In this document: in pieces, positions 9,058 through 15,077 of the stretch
Layout of the letters: each line of letters starts with the position of its first letter
Numbering within the stretch: the first letter of the stretch is position 1
Assembly (NCBI GenBank): GCA_937146805.1
Contig: CAKZRR010000037.1
Span: forward strand, 1 to 64,000
Length of the DNA: 64,000 nucleotides
Source: an uncultured Owenweeksia sp.
GTDB taxonomy: Bacteria > Bacteroidota > Bacteroidia > Flavobacteriales > Schleiferiaceae
Reading direction: 5' to 3'
Notes under the pieces: model-generated
Databases searched by the model: none
What the model was told of the DNA's origin: nothing
What the model saw: the letters and a program-made list of their open reading frames with translations, nothing else
Program-made: the position numbers and the translations under genes

Positions 9058-10935
9058 TTGGTCTTGAAAAAGCTACTCCTTCCTTTATTCTTTTTCCTAA
9101 GTTTTTTCAGCTCACAAGCGCAAGGCAATGGGCGCATTTTGGTGCATTTATTAAGTTATTTAGCAGCCGATTATGGCATGGCGGTGCAGGATGGAGAAAT
9201 CATTAGCGAGGCGGAGTTTGCCGAAATGCAAGAGTTTGCGAATAGCATCTATACTCAATCTTCTAATCTACCAGATTCAACGGTAAGCCAGATGGCACTA
9301 TTAATTAATCAGGTTGATGATAAGGTTTCGCAAAAGGAAATTATCGCCAATGTAAGCCGTATTAAAAAGTCGGTCATAAAGGTTTTTCAACTTTCTACAG
9401 CGCCAAGCAAGTTTCCAAACTTAAGCCGTGCAAAACAAAACTATAAGCAGTTATGTACAGCTTGCCATGGCCCAAAGGGTAAAGGAAATGGTTTAGCCGC
9501 AGCTGGATTAGAACCGGCACCAACAAATTTTCACCACCCTGATAAGGCAAACGGCCTCTCTCCTTTTCAAGCTTTTAATACTATAAAATTGGGTGTGGAA
9601 GGCACCAGTATGATAGCTTTTAGTGATTTAAGTGAAGAGGAAACTTGGGACTTAGCTTTTTATGTTTTGCAGTTTTCGCAAAAAGAGCAAGCCGTAAAAA
9701 ACCTGAGTTTAAGTAAATCCATAGGTTTGGAGCAATTGGCCAGTTTAAACAATGTGGAACTGGGCGAATTATACCCTCGTTTAAAAACGGATAAGGAACT
9801 ATTGGCCTTGGCTAGAAATAACCCTGAGAAACTGGCCAAAGCCAACGAGGCCGACTATTGGAGCTTTGCTAAAGAAACGTTGAAAAAATCATCAGACGCT
9901 TATGCGGCTGGCCGTCAAGCGGAATCAAGAGAATGGGCTTTGCAAGCGTATTTAGAAGGGGTGGAACCCATAGAAATGCAACTGGTAGCAAAAGATAAAA
10001 GCTTGGCACAAGCCCTTGAGCAACAATTGGCCACTATGCGTGCCTTAATAGAAGGACAAAAGTCAGCGGCTGAGGTAGCGGTAGCTTATGATGCCTCTGT
10101 GGTGTTGCTTAACCAAGGAGAGGCTTTGGTTAAAGGGAGGGCCTTAAGTGCGTGGTTGAGTTTTGTAATTGCGTTTACAATTATTTTAAGAGAGGGTTTA
10201 GAGGCTGTTTTAGTAATAGTGGCAGTGCTTAGCGTATTAAAGGCAACAGGTTTGGCAAAAGCAAAACCATGGGTACACGGTGGTTGGATAATGGCACTTT
10301 TGAGTGGTTTGGGTTTATGGTGGGCCGCACAAAAGTGGTTTGTTTTTAGTGGCGCACAACGCGAAATTATGGAAGGGCTTATTGCCTTGGTAGCTGTGGC
10401 GGTGTTGCTGTATCTTGGTTTTTGGATGCATTCAAAAACGGAAGCCGGTAAATGGCAACGTTTTGTAAACGATAAAATAGGAGGAATGGCCAAACGCAAT
10501 AATTTGTTGGGTTTAGCGGTACTATCCTTTTTGGTAGTTTTTAGAGAAGCCTTTGAGTCGGTGCTCTTTTTATCGGCTGTAAGCCTAGAGGGCGGACAAG
10601 AAACTAAAGCCGCTTTAGGTGGTGGTGTGGCATTGGCTTTTGTTTTGATTGCCCTAATGGCGGTTTTACTTTTAAAGTTTTCTAAAAAACTCCCTATTTC
10701 ACAATTGTTTAAGTACTCCTCAATTTTGGTGGCAGTACTTGCTTTTGTGCTTACAGGCAAAGGTATTTATGCCTTGCAGGAGGCGGGGTGGTTGCAAATA
10801 AAAATGTTGCCTTTTAACCTTCGTTTTGAGTGGTTGGGTCTTTACCCTACATGGCAAACCACCATAGGGCAAACAGTAATATTATTAGTAATAATACTGC
10901 TTTGGCGTAAGGCGGTTAAACCGCTTAAGGGCTAA
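9058..10935 (+). CDS. Cytochrome c-FTR1 fusion iron permease
   Basis: A 625-residue fusion. A signal peptide (MVLKKLLLPLFFFLSFFSSQAQ) is followed by a helical region and a c-type cytochrome with haem motif CTACH (Cys133, Cys136, His137), YKQLCTACHGPKGKG, and a likely axial Met in GTSMIAF. A linker precedes seven or so transmembrane helices of the FTR1/EfeU type from about residue 365 to the end, with the two iron-binding REGLE-like motifs REGLEAVLV (~378) and REAFESVLF (~497). The attached cytochrome probably couples Fe(II) oxidation to uptake through the permease. No ATG is available: TTG at 9058 is used here, and TTG at 9064 is equally possible. Confidence 0.88.
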   Translation: MVLKKLLLPLFFFLSFFSSQAQGNGRILVHLLSYLAADYGMAVQDGEIISEAEFAEMQEFANSIYTQSSNLPDSTVSQMALLINQVDDKVSQKEIIANVSRIKKSVIKVFQLSTAPSKFPNLSRAKQNYKQLCTACHGPKGKGNGLAAAGLEPAPTNFHHPDKANGLSPFQAFNTIKLGVEGTSMIAFSDLSEEETWDLAFYVLQFSQKEQAVKNLSLSKSIGLEQLASLNNVELGELYPRLKTDKELLALARNNPEKLAKANEADYWSFAKETLKKSSDAYAAGRQAESREWALQAYLEGVEPIEMQLVAKDKSLAQALEQQLATMRALIEGQKSAAEVAVAYDASVVLLNQGEALVKGRALSAWLSFVIAFTIILREGLEAVLVIVAVLSVLKATGLAKAKPWVHGGWIMALLSGLGLWWAAQKWFVFSGAQREIMEGLIALVAVAVLLYLGFWMHSKTEAGKWQRFVNDKIGGMAKRNNLLGLAVLSFLVVFREAFESVLFLSAVSLEGGQETKAALGGGVALAFVLIALMAVLLLKFSKKLPISQLFKYSSILVAVLAFVLTGKGIYALQEAGWLQIKMLPFNLRFEWLGLYPTWQTTIGQTVILLVIILLWRKAVKPLKG

Positions 10936-12719: not shown

Positions 12720-14777
12720 ATGAATTTTAGAAAGATTGTCTTTTTTCTACTCCTCTCCCCTACTTTTTTAATTGCGCAAAGCGAGATAGAGGTAAGTTCA
12801 AAAATTAAAGAAGTAACCATTTTTACATTGGGAGCAGAGGTAACCAGACATGCCGAGATAACGTTAAAAAAGGGCGTAAACGAATATGTTTTCACAGATG
12901 TTTCTTCGGTGCTGGATGAACAATCGGTTCAGTTTAAAGCAGTAGGCAGCTACAGTATTTTATCGTTAAAACACGAGCTGCGATTTGATGAAAACACCTT
13001 GGCAAAAAAAGAACGGGTGGCGGCCATATCAAAGGAATTAAAGCGATTGGGAGAAGAAGTAGAAACGCGTAAAAACGCACTGGCTATTGCGGTTAATGAA
13101 GAGAATGTGGTGATCCAAAATACGGATTATGATATTTGGAGAAACATGGATATGGCACAGCTAAAAGAAGGTGTTGACTTTGTAAAAACCCGTTTAACAG
13201 AAATAAAGGCACGCAAACAAAAATTGCGTTCAGAGATAGACGGTTTATACTATCAAAAACAAAAGTTGACCAACGAGCTACAAGGGCTGCGTATAGCTGA
13301 ATCTAAACCCAAAGGCACGGTGGTAATTAAGATAAAAGCAGAAAGTACTCAAACACTAAAAACTACTTTAAGCTATGTGGTAGCGGATGCAGGCTGGGAA
13401 CCATTTTACGATTTGCGAGTAGAAGACTTGAGCGAGCCACTGCAAGTAGATTACAAGGCTAAAGTGCGCCAAAACACAGGCGAAGAATGGAAGCAGGTAA
13501 AACTAAAATTAAGCACGGGTAACCCTTATGAAGATGGTTCGTTGCCAGAGTTAAAAACTTGGTATGTAAACTATGTTTCGGGTAATTACGGGGGCCGACC
13601 AAGAGCTCCTATTAGCCCACAGAGAACAGGTACCACGGGCTTAATAAGAGGTAATGTAGTAAATGGCAAAACAGGTGAAGCCATAGCCTTTGCTAATGTG
13701 GTAGCGCTAAATGACAAACGCGAATTACTGGAAGGCGTAACCAGTGATATGGATGGAAGCTTTAAGCTAAACCTTACTACACCTGCTACTTATATTGAGG
13801 CATCGTTTATAGGGCTGTACAAGTCAACACTTACCTTACAAAGCAATGAGCGTTTCTACAATTTTAAACTGAATGAAACGCCAGAAAAGTTGGAGGAAGT
13901 GGTAGTTGCCTATGAGCCGGTACTAAAGGAAAAAAGTGGAGAAAATATTTCTGTAAGAGGCGGCAGAGCTGAAGGCACCGCATATTTTATAGATGGGGTT
14001 AAAGTGAGAGGAAGCGTAAACATACCGCAGGCTTCGATAGCCCAAACAGAGGTAATTACTGGAGGGTTACCAGCGCAGTATGGCGATGCAATGGGAGGAG
14101 TGGTTTCCAGTACCAATAGAAGAAATTATAACTCAACAGCGTCAAGTGAATTCAAAATCTCTCAAAACCCTGTTAACCTCAAATTTGAGGTAGCTACTTT
14201 GTATGATATTCCATCGGATGGGGAAGTGTATAAAGTAAAGATGAGCAGTTTTGAAAAAGAAGTAAGCTACACCTACCGCGCCACTCCCAAACTAAATGAG
14301 CATGCCTTTTTAACGGCCACCATGGTAAATTGGGAGAACTTAAACCTGATGAACGGTTTTGCAGGTATTTATTTGGAGGGTACTTACTTAGGTGAAACGT
14401 ATTTAAATGTTGAGAAGGCTACAGATACATTGCAAGTTGACCTAGGCAAAGATGAGAACATTGTAGTGTTGCGCAATCCGGTTCAACTAAAAGAGGCTTC
14501 TCGCTTTTTAAGCGGAAAAAAGGAAGAGCAATTTCACTATCAAATTAAGGTGAGAAATAACAAATCGGCCAATTTAAGACTCATTATTACCGATCAATAC
14601 CCGGTATCGGGTAACAGCCAAATTAGTATAGAAACCCCTGAGGAAACTACCGGCAAACTCAACGAAAAAACAGGCATTATTGTTTGGGATTTCACTTTAG
14701 AACCTCAAGCCGAAAAGACCATGAATGTGCGGTATAACATTCGTTACCCTAAAAGCAGACGGGTTAATTCTAAGTAG
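12720..14777 (+). CDS. MuiA-family (DUF4140/DUF4139) protein with an inserted carboxypeptidase-regulatory and TonB-plug module
   Basis: This 685-residue paralogue has a signal peptide and the same DUF4140-coiled coil-DUF4139 plan as its neighbour. After KTWYVNYVSGNYGG, about 180 residues (roughly 298-478) are inserted. They hold a carboxypeptidase-D regulatory-like domain (LIRGNVVNGKTGEAIAFANV from 308; GVTSDMDGSFKLNL; LNETPEKLEEVVV) and then a TonB-receptor plug-like stretch (YFIDGVKVRGS at 422; AQTEVITGGLPAQYGDAMGG; VVSSTNR at 461). DUF4139 resumes after it (FEVATLYDIPSDGEVYKV). The order regulatory domain-plug is that of SusC-type receptors, but no barrel follows. The frame is clean, so this looks like a true domain insertion. 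Confidence 0.85.
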   Translation: MNFRKIVFFLLLSPTFLIAQSEIEVSSKIKEVTIFTLGAEVTRHAEITLKKGVNEYVFTDVSSVLDEQSVQFKAVGSYSILSLKHELRFDENTLAKKERVAAISKELKRLGEEVETRKNALAIAVNEENVVIQNTDYDIWRNMDMAQLKEGVDFVKTRLTEIKARKQKLRSEIDGLYYQKQKLTNELQGLRIAESKPKGTVVIKIKAESTQTLKTTLSYVVADAGWEPFYDLRVEDLSEPLQVDYKAKVRQNTGEEWKQVKLKLSTGNPYEDGSLPELKTWYVNYVSGNYGGRPRAPISPQRTGTTGLIRGNVVNGKTGEAIAFANVVALNDKRELLEGVTSDMDGSFKLNLTTPATYIEASFIGLYKSTLTLQSNERFYNFKLNETPEKLEEVVVAYEPVLKEKSGENISVRGGRAEGTAYFIDGVKVRGSVNIPQASIAQTEVITGGLPAQYGDAMGGVVSSTNRRNYNSTASSEFKISQNPVNLKFEVATLYDIPSDGEVYKVKMSSFEKEVSYTYRATPKLNEHAFLTATMVNWENLNLMNGFAGIYLEGTYLGETYLNVEKATDTLQVDLGKDENIVVLRNPVQLKEASRFLSGKKEEQFHYQIKVRNNKSANLRLIITDQYPVSGNSQISIETPEETTGKLNEKTGIIVWDFTLEPQAEKTMNVRYNIRYPKSRRVNSK

Positions 14778-14780
14778 CGT

Positions 14781-15077
14781 ATGAGCTTTGGTTTACACGG
14801 CAGAAATATTGGTAAGCGAAAGCCAAAAAAAATGTACGCTTATTTAAAATCGCTGTATGGCGAAGAGCTGGAAATGCACCTAAAGCATGAGCAGCGCGAA
14901 TTGAACAAAACCAAAGAATTTACCGATTACCAACGGCATGAGTTTAAGCGCAAGCTAAAGGAAAGAGTAAAGGAGGATCAACGCAAAATGGCCAAAGCTT
15001 TAGTTCTTTCGGGACTGATAACGCTGCTGGTATTGGCGGCAATTGTATGGTTTTTACGCAGTATGTTTAATTTTTAG
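14781..15077 (+). CDS. Small C-terminally anchored membrane protein
   Basis: A 98-residue product starting 4 nt after the MuiA paralogue and so probably co-transcribed. The first 70 residues are highly charged and helical, rich in Lys, Arg and Glu (LKHEQRELNKTKEFTDYQRHEFKRKLKERVKEDQRK). One transmembrane helix follows (ALVLSGLITLLVLAAIVWFL), ending close to the C-terminus. That makes a tail-anchored inner-membrane protein with its charged part in the cytoplasm. I do not recognise the family. Its 3' end overlaps the convergent gene at 15067 by 11 nt. Confidence 0.65.
   Translation: MSFGLHGRNIGKRKPKKMYAYLKSLYGEELEMHLKHEQRELNKTKEFTDYQRHEFKRKLKERVKEDQRKMAKALVLSGLITLLVLAAIVWFLRSMFNF

Follow-up and report, generated by a model that had tools for sequence, protein, structure and literature searches.

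A hypervariable loop of MuiA/DUF4139 proteins in Bacteroidota contains pieces of TonB-dependent receptor N-termini and may act as a receptor-mimicking docking or decoy site

The 64,000-nucleotide contig stretch of an uncultured Owenweeksia sp. analysed here (the window) encodes a MuiA/DUF4140-DUF4139 protein, named P0001, whose DUF4139 domain harbours a receptor-derived insert. The site of this insert in Bacteroidota MuiA proteins is, as judged from the sequences, a hypervariable loop that has repeatedly been filled with N-terminal pieces of TonB-dependent receptors (TBDRs), such as the regulatory (reg) domain, the Ton box and parts of the plug. From this pattern we infer, tentatively and at slightly below an even chance, that the P0001 loop functions as a receptor-mimicking docking or decoy loop.

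P0001 is a 685-aa ORF on the plus strand (12720–14777), as are all its parts given below. The whole protein matched TIGR02231 with 285.4 bits against the NCBIfam cut-off of 112.6, and the Pfam domain order of DUF4140 followed by DUF4139 was that of a full MuiA-type scaffold. Residues 1–20 (MNFRKIVFFLLLSPTFLIAQ; 12720–12779) were read as a probable signal peptide having no lipobox Cys. DUF4140 spans residues 32–129 (12813–13106; Pfam and structure model). The DUF4139 match covers residues 216–678 and bridges the insert, with one part before it (approximately residues 216–291; 13365–13592) and the other after it (approximately residues 478–678; 14151–14753), as delimited by Pfam and by BLASTP to the neighbouring paralogue P0002. 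The insert holds a CarboxypepD_reg-like domain at residues 309–396 (13644–13907), which was recovered by Pfam (CarbopepD_reg_2, PF13715; 41.5 bits, gathering cut-off 32.2), by the structure model and by Foldseek, and which resembles the N-terminal extension (NTE) of SusC/Oar-type receptors. It is closed by the Ton-box-like peptide LEEVVVAYEP at residues 391–400 (13890–13919), detected with a PSSM made from receptors. The C-terminal part of a plug then follows at residues 405–461 (13932–14102; SVRGGR..YFIDGVKVRGS..GGLPAQYGDAMGG) and scored 27.0 bits against PF07715 with a gathering cut-off of 23.9. Thus, the NTE and Ton box precede the plug part as in TBDRs, and the order of regulatory domain and plug in a MuiA scaffold, proposed earlier from the sequence alone, was confirmed by both profiles matching above gathering inside DUF4139; the peptides quoted in that reading were located at residues 308–321, 422–432 (YFIDGVKVRGS) and 448–460. 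The Plug match was restricted to profile positions 43–107 of 107, and the plug is incomplete, its N-terminal part being absent. As that reading also had it, no barrel is present: DUF4139 instead of a 22-stranded β-barrel follows the plug part, and no barrel family was matched. Furthermore, Pfam gave no PF00207 or MG domain match in P0001, a search for solved homologues by sequence returned only a marginal match to the SusC NTE, and no match was obtained in a defence-system library.

The gene just upstream encodes P0002 (11053–12636, plus strand, 527 aa), a MuiA/DUF4139 paralogue that also contains DUF4140 and DUF4139; both proteins scored 285–287 bits against TIGR02231. The P0002 loop showed no receptor pieces with the receptor PSSM, and neither CarbopepD_reg_2 nor Plug was matched in it by Pfam. 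By BLASTP, residues 3–291 of P0001 align with 1–287 of P0002 and residues 472–680 with 312–520, leaving about 180 extra residues (about 156 net) at one point, as had been noted from the sequence. The further suggestion of a duplication with one modified copy did not hold. On the MuiA scaffold tree P0001 and P0002 belong to two different clades with good support, so P0002 is an old paralogue and a recent tandem duplication with one altered copy was ruled out. An assembly artefact was likewise ruled out, as the insert occurs with identical gene order in an independent MAG of the same genus (L003), in the single-contig genome G393, also of that genus, and in many other Bacteroidota.

The variation at this site was followed across the phylum. 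Among 392 Bacteroidota genomes, DUF4139 spans grouped into an insert-free class and insert classes of various sizes, and many MuiA proteins of the window's own family have some insert. The loop was defined as the stretch between WYVNY (P0001 residue 281) and YTYRATPKL (residue 517) in 101 MuiA proteins and was classified using profiles built from receptors only. Reg and plug together were found in 17 loops, plug without reg in 7, reg only in 35 and neither in 42 (hereafter 'none'). When the loop was removed from the alignment, the insert class changed 22 times on the scaffold tree. The type of piece varied with lineage, being Oar-like (GGLPAQYGD) in the window's family and SusC-type (LYVIDGVPV..LYGSRGANGV) in another family of the same order. 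Some pieces were reordered, as in L109, where VVVTGGTPAQYGDAAG lies ahead of IIVRGTRDDANLVFVDGVRVR, and in L248 and L250 of genus g3, where the plug-type LQGRASGVQ precedes the Ton-box-type peptide. The pieces in the loops that were read always derived from the N-terminal region of receptors.

Ton-box-like and LQGxVAGV-like peptides were scored with the receptor-derived PSSM against shuffled loops. The canonical Ton-box-like LEEVVVAYEP of P0001 was significant against shuffles of its loop (p = 0.007). Such peptides of either kind were present in 25–27 of 33 reg-type loops (~1–2 expected) and in 15 of the 19 loops of g3, a genus of Flavobacteriales, where ~1 was expected and where even short loops contain them. 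They were found in 10 of 33 'none' loops and in 2 of 11 loops of a distant clade that includes non-Bacteroidota. The sequence-only reading had proposed that the module could interact with TonB systems. Because a canonical Ton-box-like peptide ends the reg domain, a relation of P0001 to the Ton system is plausible; a plug module occluding barrels found no support. About one-third of the plug-bearing loops gave no Ton-box signal, and therefore TonB docking cannot account for all of them.

The plug piece of P0001 was found to be 75% identical over 61 aa to a TBDR of about 1,240 aa encoded in the same genome (G000:C17, L119). A best-matching receptor of this size is present once per genome in most relatives; none was recovered from the G392 assembly. 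Of the 19 plugs in the window's genome, no other than the MuiA one is known here to lie outside a receptor, and a single TBDR stands well ahead of the rest in similarity to it; random sampling of the genome's receptors was thus ruled out for the window. When the plug pieces of 18 inserts (13 MuiA, 3 VWA and 2 A2M) were compared with the receptors of 30 genomes and the ranks were corrected by column for receptors that score high against everything, the own receptor ranked first of 30 for 13 of the 18 inserts, and none of 20,000 permutations reached the observed mean own-receptor match. Because relatedness could mislead the permutation test, a four-point comparison was also made, in which the summed identities of MuiA and TBDR within each of two genomes were set against those of the crossed pairs; if the two proteins were old paralogues that never exchanged sequence, both sums should come out alike whatever the species tree. 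For the plug part, 130 MuiA pairs favoured the own receptor and 14 the crossed one, and across all scaffolds the counts were 223 and 16, respectively. These pairs overlap in their genomes and so lack independence; when each genome entered a single pair, a median of 7 of 8 favoured the own receptor, a modest result (sign test, median p = 0.035). Within the clade of P0001, 10 of 10 comparisons of the plug part favoured the own receptor. The mean per column there was 0.172 for the plug as against 0.015 for the reg domain, for which own-receptor matching is about absent; this contrast also controls for composition. The matching can also be seen in stretches common to MuiA and the TBDR of the same genome, namely SVRGGR.EGT.YFIDGVKVRGSVN in the window, NIRGARSEGTVYYVDGVKMRGSVN in G394 and GGRGGEVVY.VDGVK in G425.

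The age of these copies was assessed from codons. Among residues identical between the insert and the own receptor, 510 of 1,288 codons were identical, with 476 expected. In high-identity stretches, which were selected for ≥70% identity and averaged 71% identity in 849 aligned residues, identical codons numbered 236 of 594 against 209 by chance, and 95 of 286 fourfold sites were identical against 80 by chance. Recent gene conversion or a recent copy was not seen, codon agreement being near chance and synonymous sites near saturation. The insert is therefore no recent copy, and matching persists at the amino-acid level, where identity has outlived near-saturated synonymous change as would be expected under selection. 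The slight surplus of identical codons may go back to old copying, and the plug matching can also stem from old, repeated copying off the receptor gene. A close pair of MuiA genes in G393 and G392 (L057 and L058) is informative here. The G393 piece shares about 41% identical codons with its own receptor as compared with 72% between the two MuiA genes; being more diverged from the receptor, it predates the G393/G392 split. The scaffolds of this pair are 92% identical (88% of nucleotides), and only 15 of 49 residues are common in the loop after the Ton box, which indicates that loops also decay fast in some lineages.

In an AlphaFold2 model of P0001, the MuiA scaffold, with long helices paired at approximately residues 91–192, and the reg domain were both predicted with confidence. 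Residues 389–484 were modelled with a pLDDT of ~30 and a plug fold was not predicted; the alignment was shallow and held a single other sequence with this plug piece, so the low pLDDT is weak evidence of disorder. Foldseek against the PDB returned carboxypeptidase-D-like transthyretin-like and Cna-B-type domains, all on the reg domain, and no meaningful match to the rest of the scaffold.

Receptor pieces were also found in exported scaffolds unrelated to MuiA. YfbK-type VWA proteins carry them in G392, G410, G401 and G409, and alpha-2-macroglobulins (A2Ms) in G396 and G409. In A2Ms the pieces lie directly upstream of PF00207; in L141, for example, reg spans 1088–1164 and the A2M domain starts from 1291. 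This position, from an alignment to complement C5, is presumably that of the C5 anaphylatoxin segment and the A2M bait region. In the phylum sample, receptor-like pieces were seen by eye at the bait position in all six A2Ms in which a motif allowed the boundary to be placed, the other 24 A2Ms being unjudged, and most VWA N-termini, also read by eye, hold reg or Ton-box pieces. Ton boxes, reg domains or plug pieces were noted in the bait-position segments of L277, L279, L280, L271, L296, L297, L141 and L143. A reg-like domain and a Ton box, in some cases with a plug as well, were noted ahead of VWA in L300–L315, L142, L127, L172 and L173 (L304 and L314 are examples). In G017, the loop of the VWA protein agrees with that of MuiA at 81 of 119 aa and has another receptor stretch, EVTVYG..L..R.YVGAV.TVTAKEIAKRPV, in common with the A2M loop; outside G017, G409 and G410 such concordance between scaffolds was weak or absent. 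Small exported proteins of about 240 aa, with an N-terminal copy of a TBDR reg domain and what was read by eye as a type IX secretion C-terminal domain, were also observed. The window's genome has a small reg-copy protein (L264, G000:C16:29336-29650) that matches the reg domain of the TBDR at 64% identity, and L266 and L267 are of the same kind. In G406 (C23), the VWA-type protein L268 contains three elements of its own receptor, namely reg, the Ton box and the stretch TTAEDIQNMAVRDIT, and next to it lies a second, short ORF that holds one more copy of reg.

In the mechanism that we tentatively favour, the exported MuiA scaffold would display in its hypervariable loop a mimic of the periplasmic N-terminus of the resident Oar-like TBDR of about 1,240 aa. 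In P0001 the mimic would comprise the reg domain, Ton box and plug peptide, and the model suggests an unfolded peptide tethered to the folded reg domain. The loop would be recognised by whatever reads the receptor N-terminus: the C-terminal domain of TonB would bind it through the Ton box, and the plug peptide may be read by a putative periplasmic factor such as a protease, a chaperone or an incoming bacteriocin or phage protein. By analogy with the A2M bait region, where receptor pieces of this kind also occur, the loop may thereby act as a docking site or decoy. This interpretation would cover both the TonB-docking and the plug-matching data and agrees with the bait position in A2Ms. Several observations argue against it: 42 of the 101 MuiA loops have little or nothing recognisable, parts of the loop degenerate freely in L057/L058, some plug-bearing loops give no Ton-box signal, and the result with disjoint genome pairs is modest. 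The matching of a mimic to its own target was seen at near-saturated synonymous sites, and old copying fits this result too.

SusC cannot do without its NTE and its Ton box (PMC7782687), which, together with Ton-box-type peptides in most reg-type loops (25–27 of 33) and a canonical one in P0001, favours a narrower explanation, namely that reg and Ton box let TonB-ExbBD grip and pull MuiA, as well as VWA and A2M proteins, so that force would reach a non-receptor and the plug would be baggage. The CP domain of PorE, which is NTE-like, was interpreted as a sign of force transduction (PMC12204202). This explanation seems rather unlikely to us, as loops with only a plug or only LQGxVAGV exist and, in the P0001 clade, the own-receptor match lies in the plug part and not in the reg domain. 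Another explanation is that receptor pieces are captured again and again to no functional end, with abundant receptor donors, tolerated soluble N-terminal pieces and overwriting by ectopic recombination. This would account for the uniform kind of donor, the variation in length, the rearranged order in L109, L248 and L250, and the rapid turnover. We consider it distinctly unlikely, given that the amino-acid match is retained at near-saturated synonymous sites, pointing to purifying selection, that the G393 piece still matches its own receptor despite being older than the G393/G392 split, and that the pieces in the loops read always come from the receptor N-terminal region. The sequence-only reading had favoured a plug acting in trans, binding or occluding the barrel of its cognate receptor. 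Close resemblance to a particular receptor encoded in the same genome is a property that pairing with a barrel would require; however, only the C-terminal part of the plug is present, its predicted order is low (pLDDT ~30, from a shallow alignment) and the pieces of relatives are reordered or minimal. A piece not predicted to fold makes a barrel-occluding plug unlikely, and on all these grounds we regard this possibility as highly improbable.

Returning to the mimic interpretation, it may extend beyond MuiA to integrated decoys across the Bacteroidota envelope, in which unrelated scaffolds (MuiA, YfbK-type VWA, the A2M bait and others) would hold copies of the own TBDR N-terminus, matched by selection and serving as bait or docking sites against a reader of the receptor's periplasmic side; we consider this possible and still doubtful. 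In plant NLRs with integrated decoys, a scaffold carries a replica of a different protein, the one actually targeted. The comparison is by analogy only, as the present setting is a bacterial envelope and the attacker is hypothetical. Among the systems nearest to P0001, the MuiA/TIGR02231 family shares the full scaffold of P0001 and P0002, both above cut-off, and differs by the receptor-derived insert of about 180 aa inside DUF4139 of P0001. SusC/Oar-type transporters share the order of NTE, Ton box and plug at their N-termini, with 75% identity over 61 aa in the plug piece, whereas P0001 is without the barrel and the N-terminal part of the plug, and its plug is not predicted to fold. The NTE of SusC-type receptors has no agreed function (PMC7782687). 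The A2M bait region (PMC4498604) is likewise an exposed, variable, disordered loop in an exported scaffold, and receptor pieces occupy the bait position of several Bacteroidota A2Ms; MuiA differs in having neither thioester nor trap, and a protease role for its loop would be by analogy only. PorE offers an NTE-like domain in a non-receptor envelope protein, with a suggested link to a TonB-like force transducer, and the accessible part of that report mentions no plug pieces or receptor matching (PMC12204202). No description of receptor inserts in MuiA/DUF4139 proteins or of plug mimicry was found in the open-access literature, most subscription papers and preprints lying outside this scope, and the pattern of several scaffolds matching the own receptor appears to be undescribed.

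Bacteroidota dominate the gut and much of the sea. If the decoy interpretation is true, it would represent a new kind of system, in which these bacteria have a hidden layer of exported proteins imitating the inner ends of their own receptors. It would also provide a first handle on MuiA/DUF4139 proteins and Bacteroidota A2M bait regions, and would point to a putative factor that reads TBDR N-termini. Because the pieces match the receptor of their own genome, the question can be tested directly through peptide swaps between species.

The genes around the MuiA pair also showed conserved features. Immediately downstream of P0001, a protein of 98 aa whose C-terminal segment is hydrophobic (14781–15077, plus strand), and which the sequence-only reading had proposed as a possible partner, has homologues 3' of insert-bearing MuiA genes in L003 (7927–8232), L057 and L059, with the motif RKPKK..LYGE; it has no known family and is a conserved neighbour by association only. 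Upstream of the pair, a cytochrome-c-like CxxCH segment fused to an FTR1-like permease was recognised by reading at 9058–10935 of the window, and this fusion is kept in the sister genome L003 at 817–2742.
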